Virus record (IMG/VR): IMGVR_UViG_3300033816_001097
Coordinates: 1-34,648 of that record
From: a virus
Strand: one strand, 5' to 3'
DNA: 34,648 nt
Positions 20,682 through 34,558 of the stretch are shown here, piece by piece (position 1 is the first letter of the stretch; each line of letters begins with the position of its first letter). Below the pieces are notes generated by a model. The model was not told where the DNA came from. It saw only the letters and a list, made by a program, of their open reading frames with translations, and made no database searches. The translations under genes were made by a program, and so were the position numbers.

Positions 20682-20707
20682 CTAATTCTTTTTGTGTGAC
20701 ATAGTTT
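20678..20707 (+). promoter_or_regulatory. Candidate sigma70-type promoter for guaC
   Basis: TTGACT (20678-20683), 18-bp spacer, TAGTTT (20702-20707), then 5 nt to ATG 20713. The -10 is weak, so confidence is limited; if used, the mRNA is leaderless. Confidence 0.45.
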
Positions 20708-20712
20708 GTACG

Positions 20713-21747
20713 ATGATTGTAAACTACGAACCAAAACTAGATTATTCTGATGTTTTGATTGTTCCAAAAACATCAAAAGTAAAATCCAGAAAAGAAGTTA
20801 GTTTAGAAGCGACTACCACTTTTAAATGTGGCTCTTCTTGGAGCGGTGTACCCATAATGGCTGCTAACATGTCTACTGTTGGTACGCATAATATGGCATT
20901 GGCTTTATCTGAATACAAAATGATTACTTGCCTTAAAAAAGGTGGTGATTACTATTCTAGTTTTGCAACCAGCTATCCAGAAAAAGAAAAATATGTTTCA
21001 CTTACGCTGGGTTTGGACGCTGATAGTAAATTGTTTGTAGATACCGCAAATATAAAAGATCCAACATTTGTTTGTCTAGATGTAGCCAATGGTTACATGG
21101 TTGAGTTTCACAATTTTACAAAGAAAGTAAGAGAAAAATGGCCAACTTCAATTTTGATTGTAGGGAATGTAGTAACCCCAGAGGGGGTAGAGGCATTGTC
21201 ACTAGCTGGAGCAGACCTCGTAAAAGTGGGAATTGGTTCGGGGTCGATGTGTCTGACACGCAGAGTCGCAGGGGTGGGGTATCCACAGCTCTCTGCGGTA
21301 CTAGAGTGTGCACCAATAGCCGAAGCATTAGGTATTGGGATCGTTGCTGACGGTGGTATTATATACCCTGGTGATTTTGCTAAATCTTACATCGCTGGAT
21401 CTGCATTTGTAATGGCCGGAGGAGTTTTTGCAGGTCATGATGAATGTGGTGGAGAAATCCGCCACGGAGATCACGGTGAACTAAAAATGATTCATTATGG
21501 AATGAGCAGCAAAACAGCAAATGAAAAATATAATGGAGGTCTATCAGATTATAGAGCTTCTGAGGGCAGAACTGTTGAAGTTCCTTATAGAGGTCCTGTA
21601 AAAAATACAATCCAAGATATTTTTGGTGGTATTAGATCTGCCTGTTCTTATGTTGGATCATTTAATTTAACTGAACTATATTCTAATGGAACTTTGGTTA
21701 AAGTAAATCGAACAATTAATACGGTATTTGAACACAACGAAATATAA
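20713..21747 (+). CDS. guaC: GMP reductase
   Basis: 344 aa. Converts GMP + NADPH to IMP + NH3. IMPDH/GMPR TIM barrel without CBS domains: DYSDVLIVPKTS at the N-terminus, phosphate/active-site loop VGIGSGSMCLTRRVAGVGYPQLSAV with catalytic Cys about residue 180, ADGGI, then GMSSKTANEKYNGGLSDYRASEGRTVEVPYRGPVKNTIQDIFGGIRSACSYVG. The last block matches GMP reductase rather than IMP dehydrogenase. I start at ATG 20713; the GTG at 20692 lies in the putative promoter. The stretch about 21165-21330 is distinctly richer in G+C than the rest. Isolated by its own promoter and terminator. Confidence 0.93.
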   Translation: MIVNYEPKLDYSDVLIVPKTSKVKSRKEVSLEATTTFKCGSSWSGVPIMAANMSTVGTHNMALALSEYKMITCLKKGGDYYSSFATSYPEKEKYVSLTLGLDADSKLFVDTANIKDPTFVCLDVANGYMVEFHNFTKKVREKWPTSILIVGNVVTPEGVEALSLAGADLVKVGIGSGSMCLTRRVAGVGYPQLSAVLECAPIAEALGIGIVADGGIIYPGDFAKSYIAGSAFVMAGGVFAGHDECGGEIRHGDHGELKMIHYGMSSKTANEKYNGGLSDYRASEGRTVEVPYRGPVKNTIQDIFGGIRSACSYVGSFNLTELYSNGTLVKVNRTINTVFEHNEI

Positions 21748-21784
21748 ATATATTAACCCCACAGGAGATAGCATCTCTTGTCCG

Positions 21785-21814
21785 ACAACTCCCGAAAGGG
21801 AGTTGTTTCTTTTT
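21785..21814 (+). terminator. Intrinsic terminator after guaC
   Basis: Perfect 9-bp stem ACAACTCCC-GAAA-GGGAGTTGT followed by TTCTTTTT. The last Ts of the tract are the first bases of the next gene's TTGACA box. Confidence 0.93.
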
Positions 21815-21840
21815 GACAAATGCAGAACTGGGTATATAGT
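21813..21840 (+). promoter_or_regulatory. sigma70-type promoter, near-leaderless
   Basis: TTGACA (21813-21818), 16-bp spacer, TATAGT (21835-21840), then 8 nt to ATG 21849. No Shine-Dalgarno fits. Confidence 0.7.
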
Positions 21841-21848
21841 AGAAATCT

Positions 21849-22409
21849 ATGAACATCTTTGTACTTGACAATGACGCCGCTACGTCCGCTCGCATGATGT
21901 GTGATAAGCATGTAGTTAAAATGATTCTTGAATCCTGTCAGTTGCTTTCAACCGCACATCATGTGCTTGACGGGGATTCCTTGTACGTAAATACAGGTAA
22001 GCGCAAGTACAAAACTTATATTTGTACTAAGAAAAATATTTGCAAAGCAACTATGGTAAATCATCCATGTACTATATGGACGCGTGAAACAAGATCAAAT
22101 TATATTTGGCTTTGGAGACATGCATATGCTTTGTGCAAAGAATATACCCGCCGATATAATAAAGTTCATGCAATGGAACAAATGCTTATGGATGAACTTT
22201 ATGATCCGCCATTGAATATTGCTAAAGGTAAAATTACACCATTTGCACAGGCGATGCCAGATCAGTATAAAGATGAAAATGCTGTGGTTGCTTATCGCAA
22301 ATACTATATCAACGAGAAGGTGCGTTTTGCGAAGTGGAACTACTCTGAGGAACCTGAGTGGTTTTCAAAAAAAGTTTTTTCTCTGTCCGAAGAGTACCTT
22401 CCCTTTTAA
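21849..22409 (+). CDS. Conserved phage hypothetical protein (MNIFVLD...CDKHVVKM family)
   Basis: 186 aa. The N-terminus MNIFVLDNDAATSARMMCDKHVVKMILESCQLLSTAHHVLDG and the block NHPCTIWTRETRSNYIWLWRHAYALCKEYTRRY are recognisable from a protein family widespread in large tailed phages. The conserved D..H..K and HP.{4}R residues look enzymatic. I recall no established function; nucleic-acid glycosylase-type labels have been attached but I cannot verify them. Expressed from its own near-leaderless sigma70 promoter and ended by a terminator, so probably an early gene. Confidence 0.82.
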   Translation: MNIFVLDNDAATSARMMCDKHVVKMILESCQLLSTAHHVLDGDSLYVNTGKRKYKTYICTKKNICKATMVNHPCTIWTRETRSNYIWLWRHAYALCKEYTRRYNKVHAMEQMLMDELYDPPLNIAKGKITPFAQAMPDQYKDENAVVAYRKYYINEKVRFAKWNYSEEPEWFSKKVFSLSEEYLPF

Positions 22410-22418
22410 AAATTTTAT

Positions 22419-22443
22419 AAATGTCATATAAATGACATTTTTT
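22419..22443 (+). terminator. Intrinsic terminator
   Basis: Perfect 9-bp stem AAATGTCAT-ATAA-ATGACATTT followed by TTTT, just after the 186-aa gene. Confidence 0.8.
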
Positions 22444-22455
22444 ATGTGTTTATAT

Positions 22456-22490
22456 TTGTTATTTTGATTTGTTGGAGTATATTGTATATA
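22456..22490 (+). promoter_or_regulatory. Candidate sigma70-type promoter region for the Sm-like gene
   Basis: TTGTTA (22456) with TATATT (22478), or TTGATT (22464) with TATATA (22485) at a short 15-bp spacing. The choice is uncertain. An AAAGGA ribosome site precedes ATG 22505. Confidence 0.35.
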
Positions 22491-22504
22491 ACAAAAGGAT
22501 TACA

Positions 22505-22828
22505 ATGAACGTAAAAGTATTTAGACTCAATTCAAATGAAGAAATTTTAGCTCGCTTTGAAGAAACTGAAACCTCTTATATTCTCAAAGATCCTGCTATT
22601 CTTGTACCAATGCAACGTGGACAAATTGGACTTATGCCTTGGTTGATGTATACTAAAGCATCCAAGGGCGTGACAATTCCAAAAACTTATGTTGCATTTA
22701 TTCTAGATCCTCTAGATGAACTAAAAGAACAATATGATGCAAGTTTGAATCAAGGTATCGTGACCCCAAGTAATAAGCTTGATCCTTCTCCTACGAACAA
22801 CCCGCCTAAACTGAAGCTGACGTATTAA
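22505..22828 (+). CDS. Sm-like (LSm/Hfq-fold) small phage protein
   Basis: 107 aa from ATG 22505, chosen because AAAGGATTACA immediately precedes it; the TTG at 22469 lies within the promoter region. MNVKVFRLNSNEEILARFEETETSYILKDPAILVPMQRGQIGLMPWL is the five-strand barrel pattern of Sm-like phage proteins ('lssGeeIiA.v.e.~~~y.lk~P..l'). The C-terminus is Pro/Asn-rich. RNA binding is a possibility, not shown. Its stop overlaps the deaminase start. Confidence 0.72.
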   Translation: MNVKVFRLNSNEEILARFEETETSYILKDPAILVPMQRGQIGLMPWLMYTKASKGVTIPKTYVAFILDPLDELKEQYDASLNQGIVTPSNKLDPSPTNNPPKLKLTY

Positions 22829-23202
22829 TGAACATTGAGACCGTAATGCAAAATTACATACCCATAGCCAAGCCTCTTTCTATGGCCATGGAAAGACAAA
22901 AGAAGCACATTTCTCTTGTCATCTACAAGCGTAAAATTATTGCAATCGGTCAAAATATATTTAAAACTCATCCAGAGAGTGTTCGTCTGGGATATCGTTG
23001 TGCTGAAATGCATTCCGAACTTGATGCATTTCGCAAGATACCAAAAAGTCTTTTGGATAAAAAACTTATTCTTTTGAATTTTAGATTTAATAGATTTGGC
23101 AATTTTAGAAATTCAAAACCTTGTCCGGTCTGTGAAAAGTGGTGCAGTGAAACTTTTCATAAAATTTATTATACTACCGACGAGGGTCTAATTCGTCTAT
23201 AA
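22828..23202 (+). CDS. CDA-fold deaminase-like protein
   Basis: 124 aa. Zinc-site motifs of the cytidine/dCMP deaminase superfamily: H62-S-E64 (AEMHSELDA) and P98-C99-P-V-C102 (KPCPVCEKWC), with a preceding strand HISLVIYKRKIIAIGQN. Glu64 would be the proton shuttle. Substrate (free nucleotide, nucleic acid base or other) cannot be told from sequence; it is shorter than T4 dCMP deaminase (193 aa). Starts on the TAATG of the Sm-like gene. Confidence 0.8.
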   Translation: MNIETVMQNYIPIAKPLSMAMERQKKHISLVIYKRKIIAIGQNIFKTHPESVRLGYRCAEMHSELDAFRKIPKSLLDKKLILLNFRFNRFGNFRNSKPCPVCEKWCSETFHKIYYTTDEGLIRL

Positions 23203-26856: not shown

Positions 26857-27585
26857 ATGAGCTATCAAAATAATACAACTTTAGTTTTACCAAAAGTAGT
26901 TACTTGCAAAGAAAAGGGAATCAATCTTCCAGTTATAAATTGTGAACATTGGGAAGCAAAAGATAATTGCAATCCTGTTTGCAAATTAAATCTTGTAGAC
27001 TCTCCAGATTATAAAAAATGCAAAGATTGCAAAGAAAGAAAACCAATTAAAAGTGAAACTATGGAAAATTATAAAAGAAAAGAGTTTGTTAATATTAATG
27101 AAAATGTAAGACAAACTTTAGAAGCACAATCAAAAAAATTGCAAGAAATACAAGAGAAGTTTGCAAAGCAAAAAAAAGAACAAGAAGAAAAAATATTAAA
27201 TGAAAAATCATTTTTAGATAAAGCAGTTTCATATCTAAAAGCAGAATCATCACAAGCCACACAGGGCAAAATATCAAATAGCAACTTTGAAAAGAGAAAA
27301 GAAATATGTATGAGTTGCCCCTTTAAAGTAAACGATGTTCTATTAAAAAATGGAACAACGGCTCACGATTCTGTTGGATGGTGTAAGGGTGGATGCGGCT
27401 GTAGTGTTGGTTCCGAAAGAGCCGCCTTGTCAACCAAACTTTACATGCCAACGTTATCTTGTCCAAAAGGAAAATTTGGTGTCGAAAAGGGAGCTGGTTT
27501 TGAAATTTCTGATGCCGTAGATTCCGCAAAAGGAATTTTAACTTCAGCAATTAGTATTTTTAAGAAACCTCAGACAGATAAATAA
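26857..27585 (+). CDS. Cys-cluster protein with central coiled coil
   Basis: 242 aa. N-terminal Cys set (CKEKGINLPVINCEHWE, CNPVCKLNLVD, KKCKDCKERKP), a Lys/Gln/Glu coiled coil at about 70-115, then a second metal-type cluster ICMSCPFKVN and WCKGGCGCSVG, CPKGKFG. The C-terminal cluster matches a small phage family with C-P...C..CGC...CP.g.(W/F). Zn or Fe-S binding is likely; the role is unknown. 18 nt after the adhesin-like gene. It may work with the Cys-rich protein before it. Confidence 0.72.
   Translation: MSYQNNTTLVLPKVVTCKEKGINLPVINCEHWEAKDNCNPVCKLNLVDSPDYKKCKDCKERKPIKSETMENYKRKEFVNINENVRQTLEAQSKKLQEIQEKFAKQKKEQEEKILNEKSFLDKAVSYLKAESSQATQGKISNSNFEKRKEICMSCPFKVNDVLLKNGTTAHDSVGWCKGGCGCSVGSERAALSTKLYMPTLSCPKGKFGVEKGAGFEISDAVDSAKGILTSAISIFKKPQTDK
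27577..27584 (+). promoter_or_regulatory. Late promoter octamer GATAAATA
   Basis: Overlaps the stop of the 26857 gene; ATTAC then ATG 27590. Confidence 0.72.
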
Positions 27586-27589
27586 TTAC

Positions 27590-28117
27590 ATGCTCAAATT
27601 TAAAGACTTTTTGTTAAATGAAGATCTTGGTATCGGCCCAGAAGGAACAGCAAACAATCCTTCTATTAAAAATTATTTGGATTCGCTAAGAAAAGAAAAA
27701 AAAGATCTAGTTCAACAAAAAAAATTAACTGTAAATAACCCAGAAGAAAAAGAAAGATTGTCTGATTTACTTAATCAAAAACAACAAGAAATTTATCAAA
27801 CTCAAATTTTAAGTAATCCACAAACTTCTACTACTACTCCAAGTTTGCCAACACCACAGCTCAGTACTTCTTTAGGGTCACCAGCTGGAAAGGAAAGTGC
27901 TTTTGATAAACTTATAAAAGGCAAAACAGTTTCAACTATTGGATCATCGTCACCAACACCATCTCTTGCTTCTCCAGCTTTGAGTACAGCCACACCATCT
28001 CCTGAAAGCTCAATTTATTCAGGATATAAAGTTTTTAACAATTTAATAAGCAGCATAACAAACCCTCAATTAGATATTGAAGTTTTAGGCAAAACTTCTA
28101 AAAACATAAGATTATAA
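27590..28117 (+). CDS. Putative capsid-targeted internal protein with T4-like short leader
   Basis: 175 aa. MLKFKDFLLNE|D has the form of the T4 internal-protein capsid-targeting sequence (MKTYQEFIAE|A): about ten amphipathic residues ending in (L/I)-x-E, here L9-N10-E11. The rest has a charged helix (about 27-80) and a Ser/Thr/Pro-rich linker (TSTTTPSLPTPQLSTS; SSSPTPSLASPALSTATPSP). No catalytic motif. First gene of the leader-bearing array; leaderless late promoter. Packaging in the capsid is inferred from the leader. Alternative: a scaffold-type protein. Confidence 0.72.
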   Translation: MLKFKDFLLNEDLGIGPEGTANNPSIKNYLDSLRKEKKDLVQQKKLTVNNPEEKERLSDLLNQKQQEIYQTQILSNPQTSTTTPSLPTPQLSTSLGSPAGKESAFDKLIKGKTVSTIGSSSPTPSLASPALSTATPSPESSIYSGYKVFNNLISSITNPQLDIEVLGKTSKNIRL

Positions 28118-28120
28118 ATA
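28113..28120 (+). promoter_or_regulatory. Late promoter octamer TATAAATA
   Basis: Starts within the stop codon of the 27590 gene; TTTTT then ATG 28126. Confidence 0.78.
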
Positions 28121-28125
28121 TTTTT

Positions 28126-28587
28126 ATGAATTACCTTCTAAATTATTATAAAAATATTTGTGAAAAATACCAACAAAAAATTATTATTTTACAAAATTAT
28201 TTAAACGAGGTTGCTGAAAGTGGTATAAATGTTGCTGGCGGTGGTTTGGCCCAAGAACCAATTCCTCAAGAAGGGGCACCAATCGGTATACCGGATATGC
28301 AAGGACCACGTGATCCATCCATTCCACCAAGTCCAATTGATTATTTTTATTGGTGTGAGGACGCTGGTTGTGATATCAATACTCCACCAGGTATAGGATT
28401 TTACGATAAAGATGGTGATGGTAAAATAAGTCCTGAAGAACGCCAAGAGTGGAATATTGATACAGAGAGATGGCATCAACAAAAAAATTTATATACAAGA
28501 CATTTTAAAGAGCATTCAAAATGGAAATCTAGCCAAAAAAGAAGAAGAGTTTCTTCTATGGCAACAGATAGTCAATACTACTCATAA
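28126..28587 (+). CDS. Putative capsid-internal protein with EF-hand loop
   Basis: 153 aa. Leader MNYLLNYYKNICEKYQQ... ends in L26-N27-E28|V, the predicted processing site. The cargo carries DKDGDGKISPEE, a textbook 12-residue EF-hand calcium loop (Asp at 1, 3, 5; Gly 6; Ile 8; Glu 12), preceded by a Cys pair (WCEDAGCDIN). The C-terminus is basic (KWKSSQKRRRVSS). A single loop could bind Ca2+ or pair with another copy; dockerin-like modules look similar. Leaderless late promoter. Confidence 0.75.
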   Translation: MNYLLNYYKNICEKYQQKIIILQNYLNEVAESGINVAGGGLAQEPIPQEGAPIGIPDMQGPRDPSIPPSPIDYFYWCEDAGCDINTPPGIGFYDKDGDGKISPEERQEWNIDTERWHQQKNLYTRHFKEHSKWKSSQKRRRVSSMATDSQYYS

Positions 28588-28605
28588 CAAATAAAATAAA
28601 ATCAA

Positions 28606-29415
28606 ATGATAAATCCATTCAACGATCAATCAAATATTTTTATAAACCCATATGACAATGCAATAAAAAAATTGCAAGAACAAAATCTTTTTAAATTCGA
28701 AGAAATATATAAAAAAAGATGTGATTTTTTAAATAAAAAAAATATAAAACTTAAAAAATATTTAGAAGAAGCAACTTCGTCATTAAACGATAGAGAATTT
28801 GGGATTAATTATGATTCCGCAGTTAACAATACTAGCTCTTCTGCTAATTTAATGATGCCTAGCCCACCACCACCAAGTTGGTGGGGTGGAAAAAATAGAA
28901 TTTCATGGAATTTCGAAAATATGCCAGATTGGTATAGAAAAATGTTTGGTAATACTAATGATTTCTCCCCAGCACCTGCAGATCGCCCCAAAGTAGGCCC
29001 AAATGAACGTGGAGTAGAGATAGAGAGAGCACCCCGTGGCCCGGGATCAAATTTTAATCATTATCCTGGAGCAGGACAGAAAAGCAGTGGATTTTATAAC
29101 GGCTGGTACAAGCCACCAAAAGAATTTCCTGTATATAGCCATCAATCATCAGTGCACACTATATTTAACTTAGACCGTTCAAGATATGTAACTACTTTGG
29201 ATGGACAAGACTTACCACAGGGTGTATTTGCAGATACTCAACCACCATATTGGCTTTGGACTTTAGGCGCACCAACACCACAATATCCACAAGGTGTACC
29301 ATATTGGTTGGATATGAATGGAGGCGCTGAGAATATGGGAGTTTGGCAGATGGCAAGTCAAGGTAGTCCGGGATATTTGAATCCTTGGGGAATATTTTTA
29401 CAAAATCCGAACTAA
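28606..29415 (+). CDS. Putative capsid-internal protein, Pro/Trp-rich, paralogue A
   Basis: 269 aa. Long (about 55-residue) charged helical leader ending KKYL53-E-E55|ATSS. The cargo is homologous along its whole length to the next gene: DREFGINYDSAVN, SANLMMP, PPPPSWWGGKNR, RAPRGPGSNF, PPKEFPVYSHQ, LGAPTP, GVPYW. Rich in Trp, Pro, Gly, Tyr, with no enzyme motif seen. No late octamer is convincing upstream (19-nt gap, AT-rich), so it is probably read through from the 28126 gene. Confidence 0.72.
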   Translation: MINPFNDQSNIFINPYDNAIKKLQEQNLFKFEEIYKKRCDFLNKKNIKLKKYLEEATSSLNDREFGINYDSAVNNTSSSANLMMPSPPPPSWWGGKNRISWNFENMPDWYRKMFGNTNDFSPAPADRPKVGPNERGVEIERAPRGPGSNFNHYPGAGQKSSGFYNGWYKPPKEFPVYSHQSSVHTIFNLDRSRYVTTLDGQDLPQGVFADTQPPYWLWTLGAPTPQYPQGVPYWLDMNGGAENMGVWQMASQGSPGYLNPWGIFLQNPN

Positions 29416-30135
29416 AATACTAAAATGCTTTTTTATCAATCCGACATTAATAATACTATTTCAAAAATTTTTATTAAAAAATATTTAAAAGAAGCATATT
29501 CGTCAATAAATGATAGAGAATTTGGAATTAATTATGATTCCGCAGTCAACAGTACTAGCTCTTCTGCTAATTTAATGATGCCTAACCCACCACCACCAAG
29601 TTGGTGGGGTGGAAAAAATAGACTTTCACAGTGGTTCGCTGGTGAACGAATGCCAGATTGGTATAGAAGAATGTTTGGTTATGGTGATCCCCCAGCAGAT
29701 CGCCCTAGATTAGGCTCAAGTGAACGTGGAGTAGAGAGAGCACCCCGTGGCCCGGGATCAAATTTTAGTCATAACCCTCTTATATTTCGTAAACCGGGTG
29801 GACAATATAATGGCTACTGGTTGCCACCAAAAGAATTTCCTGTGTATAGCCACCAAGCAGAAGCACACACTTTATTGGGCTTAGACCGATCAAGATTTTT
29901 AACTACTTGGGAAGGACAAGCATTACCACAAGGTGTATTTGTAGATAGTCATGGACCACCACATTTATTCTGGACTTTAGGGGCACCAACACCAGATTAC
30001 CCAGAAGGTGTACCATATTGGATAGATTATGCTGGAGAATTTACTCCTGATAATCCAGGAGTATGGCGCATGATAAATCCGGAGCTACCGGGAAATCCTT
30101 GGGGAATTCAACCACCAGATTATAACCCCAACTAA
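28745..30135 (+). repeat. Tandem duplication of a cargo domain
   Basis: Two direct copies, about 28755-29415 and 29481-30135, encode paralogues A and B; first shared residues are KKYL.EA.SS just before the predicted processing site. Indels are confined to short linkers. Confidence 0.85.
29425..30135 (+). CDS. Putative capsid-internal protein, Pro/Trp-rich, paralogue B
   Basis: 236 aa. Cargo matches paralogue A from KKYL21-K-E23|AYSS onward (for example PPPPSWWGGKNR, RAPRGPGSNFSH, PPKEFPVYSHQ), but the first 15 residues MLFYQSDINNTISKI are replaced and are instead identical to those of the following, unrelated 30150 gene. It is therefore a cargo duplicate wearing a different leader. Upstream CTAAAATA-N5-ATG is a one-mismatch late octamer at the standard spacing. 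Confidence 0.72.
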   Translation: MLFYQSDINNTISKIFIKKYLKEAYSSINDREFGINYDSAVNSTSSSANLMMPNPPPPSWWGGKNRLSQWFAGERMPDWYRRMFGYGDPPADRPRLGSSERGVERAPRGPGSNFSHNPLIFRKPGGQYNGYWLPPKEFPVYSHQAEAHTLLGLDRSRFLTTWEGQALPQGVFVDSHGPPHLFWTLGAPTPDYPEGVPYWIDYAGEFTPDNPGVWRMINPELPGNPWGIQPPDYNPN

Positions 30136-30194
30136 ATATACTAACTAAAATGCTTTTTTATCAATCCGACATTAATAATACTATTTCAAAAATT
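29425..30194 (+). repeat. Identical 45-bp leader in two unrelated genes
   Basis: The first 45 coding bases of the 29425 and 30150 genes are identical, as is the preceding CTAAA, after which the sequences diverge into unrelated cargo. Confidence 0.88.
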
Positions 30195-30809
30195 CTTCTT
30201 GAAAAATTATTAGATGATACACCAGATCCAAGACCTCTAAAACCAAAAACCCCTTGGATGGTGGAAGGGGATTTTGTGTTTTATGGTGATCCGCCACCAC
30301 CTCCTCCTTCTGGTGTCGGACAAGCACTTGAACTTATAAATGATTATGGTATAGGTTTTCATCCATACGACTGGTTTAATAATACAAATAATCAAAATAC
30401 GACACAGGGCGAAATGCATCCAGCCATACAGTGGTTACTTGGTACAGTGGGTACTGCTGAAGGACCACTTTTATTGAGAGTATTGCAAGGATTGGCACCA
30501 ATTCCTCTTGAATGGATTCCATATTTAGCGGCTTTGGGAGTATTGGTTGTTGGTGTCGGAGGTGCTATGTATATAACTGCTGAATCTGGACAAATAATTT
30601 TAAATAATTTACCAGGTTTGCAAGAAGTAGGCTCAGGTAATGCAACTGCTTTTCAAAGAATTGATGCACCTGTATACAATGATTCCATCTACCAAAACAG
30701 CGGTATCGATCCTTTGACGGGATTGCCTTGGAATGTGATTCCACCACCTCCCCCATCTTCTTCCGGTAATGATTCTTCTTCAGGAGATGGTATAGCAGTA
30801 ATACCTTAA
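30150..30809 (+). CDS. Putative capsid-internal protein with membrane-spanning segment
   Basis: 219 aa. The leader MLFYQSDINNTISKI is shared exactly with paralogue B. L-L-E18 or L-D-D23 could be the processing site, the second being non-canonical. The cargo has PPPPPPSGVG, then a hydrophobic stretch IPYLAALGVLVVGVGGAMYI at about residues 130-149 that should span a membrane, preceded by an amphipathic LLLRVLQGLAPIP. The Pro/Ser-rich tail has PPPPPSSSGNDSSSG. If ejected with DNA it could insert in the host membrane; this is inference. ACTAAATA lies 11 nt before the ATG. Confidence 0.68.
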   Translation: MLFYQSDINNTISKILLEKLLDDTPDPRPLKPKTPWMVEGDFVFYGDPPPPPPSGVGQALELINDYGIGFHPYDWFNNTNNQNTTQGEMHPAIQWLLGTVGTAEGPLLLRVLQGLAPIPLEWIPYLAALGVLVVGVGGAMYITAESGQIILNNLPGLQEVGSGNATAFQRIDAPVYNDSIYQNSGIDPLTGLPWNVIPPPPPSSSGNDSSSGDGIAVIP

Positions 30810-30829
30810 AGTTTTTATATATTTTGTTT

Positions 30830-30837
30830 TATAAATA
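30830..30837 (+). promoter_or_regulatory. Late promoter octamer TATAAATA
   Basis: CTTTC then ATG 30843. Consensus octamer with standard 5-nt spacing. Confidence 0.78.
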
Positions 30838-30842
30838 CTTTC

Positions 30843-31547
30843 ATGGATTATTTGACAAAATATTATAAAAATTTAGCTGAAGAGCTTCAACAAAAATGTA
30901 ACAAACTTTATTTAACTTTAAATGAAGTTGCTTCACCAGTTCAATTAATGCCAGGGCAGGGTCCTGGTACTCTTGAAGGCGATCCAAATTATAGATTTGT
31001 TGGTGGTGTGGAATCCGCAGGTGATAGCGTAAGACCACAATTAATGCAATGGAACAACAATGCACAAGTTTGGAAAACTAATTTTTATAATAGTGGTTAC
31101 GCAAATGCTCCTTGGAATAATTGGGCAAGTTGGATAAATGCACTATACCAATATTGGAATAATAATGCATTTTGGAATGCAGGAATGCAAGATTTTATGG
31201 TTGGGTTGTTTGGTGATGGCTACAATTATCAATTTTTGCCAAATGGCGATATTCTTTTTACAGAAGAAATGAAACAAATTGCATATAATTGCATACAATC
31301 AATGGTTCAAGCAGGCAGTCAATCGCCAAACCAAAATGCTTCTAACGCTGCAGCACAATCTGTATTTAATTATTTCCAAGAACAATATGGAATAAAAACA
31401 TACCCGTGGTACAACGGAGAGTTTGCTCCATTCTTTACAAACTATTATCTACCAGGAGCAACTTCATTCCCACCCACACCACCGTGGCAATGGAATCCCG
31501 GTATGGGACTTCCTTTTGCAAATGCACCAACCGTTCCTGCGCCATAA
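30843..31547 (+). CDS. Putative capsid-internal protein, Trp/Asn-rich
   Basis: 234 aa. Leader MDYLTKYYKNLAEELQQ... ends L26-N27-E28|VASP. The cargo is unusually rich in Trp, Asn, Tyr and Gln (WNNNAQVWKTNFYNSGY; WNNWASWINALYQYWNNN) with a Pro/Trp tail (PPTPPWQWNPGMG). Its layout resembles the 32026 gene, though sequence similarity beyond the leader is loose. No known domain; many spaced Trp suggest an aromatic surface or carbohydrate contacts, unproven. Confidence 0.72.
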   Translation: MDYLTKYYKNLAEELQQKCNKLYLTLNEVASPVQLMPGQGPGTLEGDPNYRFVGGVESAGDSVRPQLMQWNNNAQVWKTNFYNSGYANAPWNNWASWINALYQYWNNNAFWNAGMQDFMVGLFGDGYNYQFLPNGDILFTEEMKQIAYNCIQSMVQAGSQSPNQNASNAAAQSVFNYFQEQYGIKTYPWYNGEFAPFFTNYYLPGATSFPPTPPWQWNPGMGLPFANAPTVPAP

Positions 31548-31558
31548 TATATAACAAC

Positions 31559-32017
31559 ATGAAATACGAAGAATATTATTACAAAAATCTTTGTGAAAAG
31601 TATCAAAAAAGAATTGATATTCTTGAAAGATATCTTTCTGAGGCTGGACTAAAGAAAGCTTTAAAGACCGGAAAGCCAGAACTTCTTGCAAAAGAAGGTA
31701 TAAAGCAAGGCGAAAGAAGAGAACGGCTTCTTTCAACTGCCACGGAAATGGGTCAAAGAGCTTCAGATAGTGCTCGCAAATATGGTCCAATGAGCAAACA
31801 AGTAGGTGCTGCTGGTCTACAGCAACAAGCTGCTCTTTCAAGCGCACAACAAATTGGACAAAATATCGAAGATATTGATATACAACTGGCTTCAGAAGAT
31901 CCAGAGCTAAGAAAGCGTTCAAGCGGAATGTATATGAGACAATCAATGCTGGGACCAGATGTATTCCCAGAAAGACCAATGCAAGATTATCCTCATGTTG
32001 GTTCGGCACAATATTAA
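31559..32017 (+). CDS. Putative capsid-internal protein, charged helical cargo
   Basis: 152 aa from ATG 31559; the longer frame from 31406 lies inside the preceding gene and is rejected. Leader MKYEEYYYKNLCEKYQKR... ends L26-S27-E28|AG. The cargo is Lys/Arg/Gln/Ala-rich and helical (KALKTGKPELLAKEGIKQGERRERLL, GLQQQAALSSAQQIGQNIEDID), unlike the aromatic neighbours, and could bind DNA. Upstream AATATATA-N5-ATG is a one-mismatch late octamer. Confidence 0.72.
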   Translation: MKYEEYYYKNLCEKYQKRIDILERYLSEAGLKKALKTGKPELLAKEGIKQGERRERLLSTATEMGQRASDSARKYGPMSKQVGAAGLQQQAALSSAQQIGQNIEDIDIQLASEDPELRKRSSGMYMRQSMLGPDVFPERPMQDYPHVGSAQY

Positions 32018-32020
32018 ATA
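32013..32020 (+). promoter_or_regulatory. Late promoter octamer ATTAAATA
   Basis: Overlaps the previous stop codon; AATTT then ATG 32026. Confidence 0.7.
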
Positions 32021-32025
32021 AATTT

Positions 32026-32571
32026 ATGGACTACCTAACAAATCATTACAAAAATTTATCGGAACAACTGCAAAACAAAATAAACATTTTGCAAAAAGTT
32101 TTATTAGAATCTGATATGCCACCAGTTGGTCCAGACATAGAGGGTATTGGTGATACTGCACCAATAACATCCAGAAAAGAATTTCAAGATAATGGTTTGT
32201 GGATCACACCAACTAACTGGCAAGGTCTTTATAATCAATGGCAAAAATTAAGAAACGGACCAGTTCCAAACTGGTTCCTTGCCGAATATTGGGGAGGGCT
32301 TCAATCAAATGGTGGGACTTGGGGATCAGTAGCAGATGCTTGGGACAATTTCTGCGCACAATTGTTGGGAGCAATAAGCAGAGCTGGTCAATACAATAAT
32401 CCAGAAATATACTGGGACATTCAAAGCCAGTGGCAGTATTATACAGCCCAAGCAAATAATGGTCAACCACTACCATTCCCCGTACGACACGGTGGACGCT
32501 ACACTCCACAAATTGGCATGCACCAAGTAGGCGGAAGAATAAATTATATTGAACCACATCCAAATATGTGA
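32026..32571 (+). CDS. Putative capsid-internal protein, Trp/Gln-rich
   Basis: 181 aa. Leader MDYLTNHYKNLSEQLQN... ends L26-L27-E28|SDMP. The cargo has spaced Trp residues (LWITPTNWQGLYNQWQKLRNG, NWFLAEYWGG, IYWDIQSQWQYY) and a Pro/His/Gly tail. Composition similar to the 30843 cargo; no catalytic motif. Followed by a strong terminator. Confidence 0.72.
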   Translation: MDYLTNHYKNLSEQLQNKINILQKVLLESDMPPVGPDIEGIGDTAPITSRKEFQDNGLWITPTNWQGLYNQWQKLRNGPVPNWFLAEYWGGLQSNGGTWGSVADAWDNFCAQLLGAISRAGQYNNPEIYWDIQSQWQYYTAQANNGQPLPFPVRHGGRYTPQIGMHQVGGRINYIEPHPNM

Positions 32572-32603
32572 TTATTATTCAATAATTCAAAAACAAAAAA
32601 TAA

Positions 32604-32631
32604 GGGTCCCCAAAAGGGACCCAAATTTTTT
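32604..32631 (+). terminator. Intrinsic terminator inside the leader-gene array
   Basis: Perfect 7-bp stem GGGTCCC-CAAAA-GGGACCC followed by AAATTTTTTT; splits the array before its last two genes. Confidence 0.9.
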
Positions 32632-32658
32632 GTTAAAATTTTTATACCAATACATTTA

Positions 32659-32666
32659 TCTAAATA
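32659..32666 (+). promoter_or_regulatory. Late promoter octamer TCTAAATA
   Basis: TTCTT then ATG 32672; this site rejects the in-frame start at 32549, which lies upstream of the preceding terminator. Confidence 0.75.
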
Positions 32667-32671
32667 TTCTT

Positions 32672-33127
32672 ATGGATTATTTGACAAACTATTACAAAAA
32701 TCTCTGCGAGCAACTTCAAAATAAACTAAATTATCTGGAACAAATGATCGCAGAGGCCAGACGGGGAACCGTCATGGTAGATGTAGATGACATCGAACGC
32801 GACGAGGGAGGTGACAGTATCATCGTCGGCAGACTCGCATCAGGCAAGGGTGCCAAAACCGAAAGAACGATCACCTTCTACCCACAAAAAGAGCATGACA
32901 TGGATGACTACCGCAATGCAGCCAAAATCGGCGCAGAGCCAATGGAAATTCGTTCAAACGAGATCATGCACGAACCAAGGGAAAGAGGACACAATGTACG
33001 TGGCGCAGGCGCAAAGAGAGTAAAGAAAGAAATCGCACAGCACGGCGCAGAACTCAAGAAGCCAATGAGCGAACGCGGCGAAATCAGCTTCGACGCAAGA
33101 AACGCCCGTCGCCAAGCAAACAGATAA
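32672..33127 (+). CDS. Putative capsid-internal protein with GC-rich charged cargo
   Basis: 151 aa. Leader MDYLTNYYKNLCEQLQNK... ends I26-A27-E28|ARRG. The leader is AT-rich like its neighbours, but from the processing site on the DNA switches to GC-rich codons (GAC, GGC, CGC, ATC). The cargo is highly charged: VDVDDIERDEGGDSIIVGRL, HEPRERGHNVRGAGAKRVKKEI, DARNARRQANR, with a basic end. No domain recognised; nucleic-acid binding is possible. It looks like a foreign cargo placed behind a resident leader. Confidence 0.75.
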   Translation: MDYLTNYYKNLCEQLQNKLNYLEQMIAEARRGTVMVDVDDIERDEGGDSIIVGRLASGKGAKTERTITFYPQKEHDMDDYRNAAKIGAEPMEIRSNEIMHEPRERGHNVRGAGAKRVKKEIAQHGAELKKPMSERGEISFDARNARRQANR

Positions 33128-33147
33128 TTTTTATACGAATAAATCTA

Positions 33148-33155
33148 TCTAAATA
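33148..33155 (+). promoter_or_regulatory. Late promoter octamer TCTAAATA
   Basis: TTCTC then ATG 33161; the promoter and the first 30 coding bases nearly duplicate the cassette at 32657. Confidence 0.75.
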
Positions 33156-33160
33156 TTCTC

Positions 33161-33562
33161 ATGGATTATTTGACAAACTATTACAAAAATTTATGTGAAC
33201 AATTACAACATAAAGTGAATAAGCTTTCTTTTACAAGAAAATTGTTAAATGAAAGTGATACCCCCACCCAATTTCCAGTTCAAGATAAACCAGGCGGTCC
33301 TTTGTATGTGCCCGGGAATCCTTATTGGGAACCAGCTCGGCCACCAATTCGGCCATCAGTTTGGCCACAAGATTGGCGACATCCTGGCGGAATAATTGAT
33401 CATGAATACCCGACTCTGCCTACTCTGCCTCCTTACCCTGTCTGGGAACATGATAGTGACCCCCCTCCAGGTTGGGATGGATGGTGGCCCGATGCCCCAC
33501 CCGGTGATCCAAGAAGTATTCCACCTGATACTTGGCCTCGTAAACCCCCCGCTGTAGGATAA
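33161..33562 (+). CDS. Putative capsid-internal protein, Pro/Trp-rich
   Basis: 133 aa. Leader MDYLTNYYKNLCEQLQHK... has a 3-residue insertion and ends L29-N30-E31|SDTP. The cargo is about one quarter Pro with regularly spaced Trp (YWEPARPPIRPSVWPQDWRHPGG; GWDGWWPDAPPGDPRS), probably extended or polyproline-like. Last gene of the array, followed by a terminator. Confidence 0.72.
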   Translation: MDYLTNYYKNLCEQLQHKVNKLSFTRKLLNESDTPTQFPVQDKPGGPLYVPGNPYWEPARPPIRPSVWPQDWRHPGGIIDHEYPTLPTLPPYPVWEHDSDPPPGWDGWWPDAPPGDPRSIPPDTWPRKPPAVG

Positions 33563-34124: not shown

Positions 34125-34451
34125 TTACATCTCGCCCCATCCCGCGCTCGCTAGCCAGTCGTTGTCTGCGTCCCAGTCCTCGCGGCTCATCCGGCTAGCC
34201 GCATCGCTGAACGCTTGGTTGTCGGCATCGCGCTCCGCGTCATCCTGAGCCTTGCGCTCCTCGCCGTACCCGGCGATCTCCCATCGGTTCTCACGGGATC
34301 CCGTGGGCTTGGCCTCGCGCTTCGCCTCGCGCTCCCGCTCCTCCTGCTCCTCGCAGGAGGGGCAGGGTCGATCATCGTAGGCGTACTCCGGGCGGTGGCA
34401 CTGGCAGGGGAAGTGTTCGTGTTCGTGGTTGTGGGTGGTGCTGTTGTGCAT
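34125..34451 (-). CDS. Unknown His/Cys-headed acidic protein (leaderless)
   Basis: 108 aa from ATG 34451 (MHNSTTHNHEHEHFPCQCHRPEY). The N-terminal 40 residues pack His and Cys (HNHEHEH, CQCH, CPSC) and could bind a metal. The rest is a highly charged helix (EEQEEREREAKREAKP; ERKAQDDAERDADNQ) ending SREDWDADNDWLASAGWGEM. The longer frame from 34556 would read through the promoter and is rejected. GC-rich codons. No family recognised. Confidence 0.68.
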   Translation of the reverse strand: MHNSTTHNHEHEHFPCQCHRPEYAYDDRPCPSCEEQEEREREAKREAKPTGSRENRWEIAGYGEERKAQDDAERDADNQAFSDAASRMSREDWDADNDWLASAGWGEM

Positions 34452-34457
34452 GGCGGT

Positions 34458-34486
34458 ATGATACCATGCCTCGCCTTCCTTGTCAA
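34458..34486 (-). promoter_or_regulatory. sigma70 promoter, leaderless arrangement (minus)
   Basis: TTGACA (34486-34481), 17-bp spacer, TATCAT (34463-34458), then 6 nt to ATG 34451. The spacer also ends in ATGG, as in the 34034 promoter's CTGG. Confidence 0.88.
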
Positions 34487-34523
34487 GCCCTTCGTAGAAT
34501 ATTTTTTTCTTTGTTCCTACCCC

Positions 34524-34552
34524 TTGACAGCGTAGGCGGAGTCTGGTACAAT
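34524..34552 (+). promoter_or_regulatory. sigma70 promoter, leaderless arrangement (plus)
   Basis: TTGACA (34524-34529), 17-bp spacer, TACAAT (34547-34552), then 6 nt to ATG 34559. Divergent from the 34458 promoter. Confidence 0.88.
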
Positions 34553-34558
34553 CCACCC

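Follow-up and report, generated by a model that had tools for sequence, protein, structure and literature searches.

A bank of candidate head-packaged cargo genes behind interchangeable leaders in an uncultivated T4-like phage

Introduction

What are ten genes of one virus doing side by side when they share a few leaders at their N-termini and little else? The question is raised by the cargo bank at 27590-33562 of the window analysed here, the whole 34,648-nucleotide (nt) virus stretch IMGVR_UViG_3300033816_001097, which the original prediction had read as an expanded version of the internal proteins of phage T4. In T4 (Straboviridae), IPI, IPII and IPIII carry a capsid-targeting sequence (CTS) of 10-19 amino acids (aa). 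Our analysis makes it very probable that the bank encodes cargo of a T4-type, internal-protein-like system that is packaged in the head, trimmed by the head protease gp21 and ejected. The sequences support modularity, an L/I-x-E junction, leader swaps, selection against internal sites, and gp21, gp22 and gp23 in the same genome; packaging, cleavage and ejection of the bodies are what we infer from them.

Ten genes, one predominant leader

All ten genes open at the predicted starts and are as follows (↓ marks the L/I-x-E junction):

27590..28117, + strand: candidate cargo gene, first of the bank, short T4-CTS-like leader MLKFKDFLLNE↓DLGIGP
28126..28587, + strand: candidate cargo gene, class A leader at residues 1-28 (28126-28209), ending YLNE↓V
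28606..29415, + strand: candidate cargo gene; its leader, distinct and long (about residues 1-55), ends YLEE↓A, and its body is a homolog of that of 29425
29425..30135, + strand: chimeric candidate cargo gene, leader MLFYQSDINNTISKI as in 30150, joined to the 28606 body at YLKE↓A
30150..30809, + strand: candidate cargo gene, leader MLFYQSDINNTISKILLE in common with 29425; body unrelated to that of 29425
30843..31547, + strand: candidate cargo gene, class A leader ending TLNE↓V at residue 28
31559..32017, + strand: candidate cargo gene, class A leader ending YLSE↓AGLKKA
32026..32571, + strand: candidate cargo gene, class A leader ending VLLE↓S at residue 28
32672..33127, + strand: candidate cargo gene, class A leader ending MIAE↓A
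33161..33562, + strand: candidate cargo gene whose class A leader is lengthened by an insertion of 3 residues and reaches LLNE↓S at residue 31

The six genes said to begin with a common helix (28126, 30843, 31559, 32026, 32672 and 33161) do share a leader, here class A, with 43-71% pairwise amino acid identity over 28 residues. It is amphipathic as described, with a hydrophobic moment of about 0.46 that is reached by 0.04% of shuffles. The terminal Glu is residue 28 in five genes and residue 31 in 33161, because of the three-residue insertion, and is followed in the six by V, V, A, S, A and S. Beyond the leader the proteins are unrelated, the column information falling from 2-4 bits inside it to ~0.5 bits past residue 32. 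For each leader pair, 4-11 of the 12-20 identical residues are encoded by different codons, so conservation is at the protein level and not due to recent DNA copying; the exception is the 32672/33161 pair, where promoter and leader DNA is duplicated at 33126-33214 (87.6% identical). A relative of 33161 (L027:8738) reads LLNE↓T. The short leader of 27590 is likewise as predicted, and its L101 and L072 homologs, MLKFKDFLLKE↓D and MLKFKQFLLFE↓D respectively, retain L-x-E with a variable x.

Relatives of the window were collected by IMG/VR protein search and leader-profile search (contigs labelled L### or G###). Counted by contig name in IMG/VR, the class A leader is present in at least 73 other uncultivated T4-like viral contigs, and a hidden Markov model of the leader gave 250 matches at E<0.01 on the retrieved loci and 0 on reversed sequences. 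Together with the window these contigs hold at least 151 distinct leader proteins (137 at <70% identity), with 2-8 class A genes per related contig. As expected of a helix with variable C-termini in related phages, the leader precedes more than 60 unrelated body families (63 clusters, one protein each, in the clustered tests below). It was found in 0 of 50,697 phage records, and none was confirmed among 84,980 bacterial and archaeal species genomes, which therefore offer no host link; searches of the phage records returned no cultivated relative of leader or bodies. The window matches G001:25454-60092 at 99.9% identity over its whole length, and G001, a 64-kb contig of the same species, contributes the head genes. 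Its gp23 is closest to those of Synechococcus T4-like phages (~55%); psbA is absent from the 11 related contigs checked, which thus show no sign of being typical cyanophages.

Conservation converges on the (L/I)-x-E site

A [LI]xE motif ends at residues 21-36 in 134 of the 137 nonredundant leader proteins, as against 59.8% in a column-permuted control (maximum 69.3% in 2000). With one protein per body cluster (63), the motif is present in 96% (null maximum 76%), and the residue after Glu is A, G, S, T or V in 64% at the site versus 35% in the bodies. The site lies at residue 23 or at 27-31, rarely both (p=7.5e-14), and in 33 homologous body pairs with leaders of unequal length the Glu remains in register, for example LSE↓ANIRSASEI at E28 versus ILE↓ANIRSASEI at E23. 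In an alignment of 17 sequences of the 31559 family, E28 is among five invariant columns; this body family also occurs behind E23 class A, CTS-like and FSNNxxD leaders. In the AlphaFold2 models, residues 2-31 of 32672 form a single unbroken helix (pLDDT about 85-94), with the beta-rich body standing apart after it, and in 31559 the helix covers 2-37.

Leaders are exchanged at the site

Within the window, the prediction for 28606, 29425 and 30150 held in part: L-E-E and L-K-E are present, but 28606 and 29425 have a common body and 29425 and 30150 a common leader, so the three do not each bring an unrelated leader and cargo. From 28751 on, 28606 and 29425 are 85.6% identical in DNA, with no similarity upstream, while 29425 and 30150 are 93.9% identical over 82 bp covering upstream DNA and leader. 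The donor switch in 29425 falls within about 29474-29490, on the L-K-E codons (29485-29493).

Searching the bodies against all open reading frames (ORFs) without a class A leader uncovered the same body families behind other leaders, with the junction at the same L/I-x-E site. For example, LLE↓AGLKKALDSGNPELMKKELAKR (class A) and MKSFKQHLHE↓SGLKKALDTGNPDLMKKELAKR (CTS-like) are identical at 26/30 positions after the site and 0/7 before it; the latter also pairs with the class C protein MNNFSDHLLFSNNIWDNANFLKQKELHE↓AGLKKA, and MKSFIQYLQE↓SGLKKA (CTS-like) pairs with both the class A and the class C protein. In another example, a single body is common to MQSFKQFLLNE↓APLS..., LIE↓AELSKK... and LHE↓ALSQK..., and MSYSFFPNDFNNVPNLQDQ...RLLE↓KARETED is 29/30 identical to a class A protein of L117 after the site. 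At least four leader classes are interchangeable in the clade; since they are exchangeable, new bodies can join by recombination at the leader or cleavage site. The clustering of CTS-like genes with class A genes is of weak significance (p 0.03-0.04). A CTS match upstream in L099/L126 was discarded as a false junction. In L117:3885, a class C leader (MAYSFFPNDFHNLPNLQDNAT) lies in-frame with a class A leader in one ORF, a possible recombination intermediate.

A gp21-like protease, and bodies that avoid its motif

The gp21-like protease that such a system calls for is encoded in G001 (L048:19130-19774; PF03420, Peptidase_S77, E 3e-41), as is gp22, and gp21 (PF03420) and gp23 (PF07068) occur in 9/9 contigs that span head genes. 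Both structural substrates carry the predicted sites. First, all seven sequences of the major capsid protein gp23 that were read carry either QYLTE↓T or QHL(T/I/A/V)E↓D, QYLTE↓T being the delta-domain site in the window species. Second, the scaffold gp22 contains 91 L/I-x-E motifs versus 36.8 expected, an enrichment of 2.48, while the mirror motif stands at 0.82. At the level of sequence, these sites argue for (L/I)-x-E as the specificity of the clade protease.

Two further genes lie near these. An unannotated gene at L048:18387-19130 (-), with equivalents in six other contigs, is always located between gp21 and gp22; in several of these contigs it begins with a short segment ending LLE↓A, such as MPLFDPHTNKILLE↓A, and the product is perhaps another processed head protein. 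A CTS-like gene adjoins gp23 (L048:15212-15754 (-); L056:12475-13008), with the starts MNGFKKYLIE↓S and MPFLKSFKTYLIE↓E and a Trp/Tyr-rich body.

Cargo exposed to gp21 should avoid (L/I)-x-E in its bodies. In 137 mature bodies, 74 [LI]xE motifs were observed versus 175 expected (ratio 0.42), and with one body per cluster the ratio is 0.51 (0.36-0.67), compared with 1.22 (1.15-1.30) in 446 other phage ORFs. Cargo and background are alike in the mirror motif (1.24 and 1.21), and when 63 phage ORFs were drawn at random 20,000 times, no draw was as low in [LI]xE as cargo.

These observations bear on a different reading of the helix, in which cytosolic proteins use it to dimerise or dock and L-x-E arises from coiled-coil heptad spacing. 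Such a domain would fit the amphipathic character and the LxE also found inside the helix at residues 13 and 17. However, conservation ends at the site; the following residue (P1') is Ala or small there and Gln or Lys/Arg at 13/17; the Glu keeps its register despite changed leader length; short non-helical leaders (CTS-like, FSNNLQD-type) substitute on orthologous bodies; and the bodies avoid LxE. We regard this reading as very improbable and strongly disfavour it. Swapped exactly at L/I-x-E, in front of bodies that avoid L/I-x-E, the helix appears to behave as a removable tag.

The bodies

Mature bodies of the window genes are 11-24 kDa with isoelectric points (pI) of 4.1-9.3, three of them basic, and include helical, coiled-coil-like and proline-rich disordered proteins. 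Pfam, PHROGs and NCBIfam searches of the ten window proteins and 135 leader proteins gave mostly no match; dockerin/EF-hand, FG-GAP, DUF7178 and the PHROGs labels peptidase, endolysin and cytidyltransferase each applied to a few leader proteins. The 28126 body has a short, weak EF-hand-like calcium loop (EF-hand_5, E 9e-4, under the curated cut-off). Foldseek with the AlphaFold2 models of 32672 and 31559 returned nothing at E<=0.001. A cytidyltransferase function for L109:6001 was not accepted, the match spanning only 45 residues near the N-terminus. A DYDGDGxxES dockerin/EF-hand-like calcium-binding motif occurs in the bodies of L019:8001, L021:8001, L028:8001 and L109:6001.

Bodies of this kind could instead be packaged and cut by gp21 yet act within the head, as core or scaffold helpers, in DNA condensation or as filling, rather than as ejected effectors. 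The helical, coiled-coil-like and disordered bodies would suit such tasks, and T4 IPIII influences head assembly (PMC9026906). Against this, more than 60 unrelated body families, differing between relatives at a conserved hotspot, resemble accessory effectors, and T4 IPI-III each inhibit different GmrSD restriction enzymes after injection, with only the leader in common (PMC12373910). A role confined to the head is in our view unlikely, though it deserves to be taken seriously.

Late promoters and a conserved hotspot

The surroundings of the bank comprise the following elements:

27579..27584, + strand: T4-late-promoter-like TAAATA, exactly 5 nt upstream of ATG (27590)
28115, 30832, 32015, 32661 and 33150, + strand: further TAAATA, 5 nt upstream of ATG, same spacing
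20692..23202, + strand: left hotspot anchor, adjoining leader genes in about 40 loci
20692-21747, + strand: IMPDH/GMP-reductase-like gene of the left anchor (PF00478, E 1.6e-63; about 40 contigs)
21849-22409, + strand: Pyr_excise-like gene of the left anchor
22828-23202, + strand: conserved gene of the left anchor
34125..34556, - strand: right anchor, conserved G+C-rich gene with homologs 3' of leader genes in about 20 contigs

In 89/151 leader genes and 6/10 bank genes of the window, exactly 5 nt separate TAAATA from the ATG, and the same spacing is seen at some other genes, late-type ones among them (gp14-like 3570 (-), 10498 (+) and G001 gp20). By analogy with T4 late promoters, it would put the transcription start at about the A of ATG and suggests that the clade habitually makes late mRNAs that are leaderless.

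The right-anchor gene has no Pfam match; it is G+C-rich in an AT-rich phage and reaches 94-96% identity in some contigs. The high G+C of the window's last kilobase raised the thought of a chimera; this was rejected, since the kilobase is also in G001 and many contigs have homologs 3' of their leader genes.

Location also raises the notion of tail-fibre or adhesin accessory genes, as the bank comes after the glycine-rich 1204-aa gene 23224 and adjoins both it and 26857. Most relatives, however, have the bank beside the IMPDH/Pyr_excise block without a 23224 homolog, Pfam and PHROGs detect no fibre domains, and the avoidance of LxE speaks for proteins that meet the head protease. This notion is scarcely credible.

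Proposed pathway and its weak points

The pathway we favour, that of ejected cargo, would run as follows. The genes would be transcribed late, many from the T4-type late promoter 5 nt before the start codon. The leader, be it the class A helix, the short T4-CTS-like peptide or another class, would bring the protein into the assembling prohead core, where gp21 would separate leader from body by a cut after (L/I)-x-E; the body, 11-24 kDa once mature, would remain in the head and be ejected together with the DNA. Leaders would thus act as swappable address modules, recombination at leader or cleavage site adding new bodies, for which an anti-defence or host-takeover role is plausible. We hold with middling confidence a broader proposal, a modular capsid-delivery platform in which promoter-leader cassettes capture new bodies at the hotspot, giving more than 60 injected-effector families and partly leaderless mRNAs.

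Several points weigh against the ejected-cargo reading. No body matches a known anti-defence protein or domain in Pfam, PHROGs or NCBIfam, and the presence of cargo in virions is a prediction from sequence. Class B motifs also begin proteins that may not be cargo, and single non-cargo families may also be [LI]xE-poor (UvsW 0.47), so that only the across-family comparison is informative. Gene 30150 has L-L-D-D where relatives read L-x-E, its nearest usable site being L-L-E at residue 18. Several mature bodies are acidic (pI 4.1-5.9), whereas T4 internal proteins are basic. Lastly, the class A leader, longer (28 aa) than and different from that of T4 as originally predicted, has no T4 counterpart and no sequence similarity to the CTS, which is matched only by class B leaders (27590; L082:3737); class A would therefore be CTS-like in its working and outside the CTS leader family.

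If the reading holds, it widens the T4 internal-protein principle from a few T-even genes to uncultivated phages with dozens of cargo families unrelated to one another. The new leader would serve as a search handle: any gene that carries it could be proposed as injected cargo even where homology gives no clue, and new anti-defence or takeover proteins might be reached in this way. Leaders may also offer new capsid-loading tags, and protease-motif avoidance a way to predict head-packaged proteins by sequence alone.

Comparison with T4 and other head-cargo systems

Translated from NC_000866, T4 ipII and ipIII start MKTYQEFIAE↓A and ipI MKTFKEFTST...ITE↓A. Mutagenesis of the T4 CTS assigned residues 4 and 7 to targeting and 8 and 10 to processing, and gp21 cleaves after L/I-X-E (PMC9026906); CTS-like leaders of the clade agree with the T4 CTS at 4, 7, 8 and 10. 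IPIII without its CTS, in the cytoplasm, still rescues infection (PMC9391042). The CTS motif stands at 43/2236 ORF starts versus 20/7546 internal Met. As a DNA pattern it occurs in T4 only in ipII, ipIII and gp61.1, in two cyanophages once each and in clade members up to eight times (control 0-1 per strand). T4 gp61.1 (NC_000866:18966-19130, -; 54 aa) begins with the CTS-like MKTFKEFIKE and might be an unrecognised head-packaged peptide.

Like the T4 internal proteins, the clade proteins are small, unrelated, encoded at variable accessory loci of a gp21/gp22/gp23 phage and joined by a common leader ending L/I-x-E, and clade bodies also carry CTS-like leaders. The differences are that the main leader of the clade, an amphipathic helix of 23-31 aa, has no sequence relation to the CTS, and that there are at least four swappable leader classes and more than 60 body clusters. 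No cargo homologous to IPI, IPII or IPIII was found among PHROGs families of known function or phage records. T4 also packages, trims with gp21 and ejects an enzyme, the ADP-ribosyltransferase Alt, whereas domain searches found no ADP-ribosyltransferase domain among clade leader proteins.

Giant phages (phiKZ, SPN3US) likewise have many head-packaged proteins, their ejection or inner-body proteins, with removable N-terminal propeptides that a gp21-like protease cuts (PMC5694885, PMC9026906), but they are far from T4, while the clade is T4-like and places short modular tags on unrelated bodies. Phage P1 DarA and Hdf, which defend against restriction, are described as head-borne anti-restriction proteins linked to head morphogenesis (PMC12810830); they belong to another phage lineage and are set beside the clade by that description. 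The principle is known from T4; new, as far as the literature and databases show, are the leader, the fact that it can be exchanged for CTS-like leaders, the scale and the signature of site avoidance.

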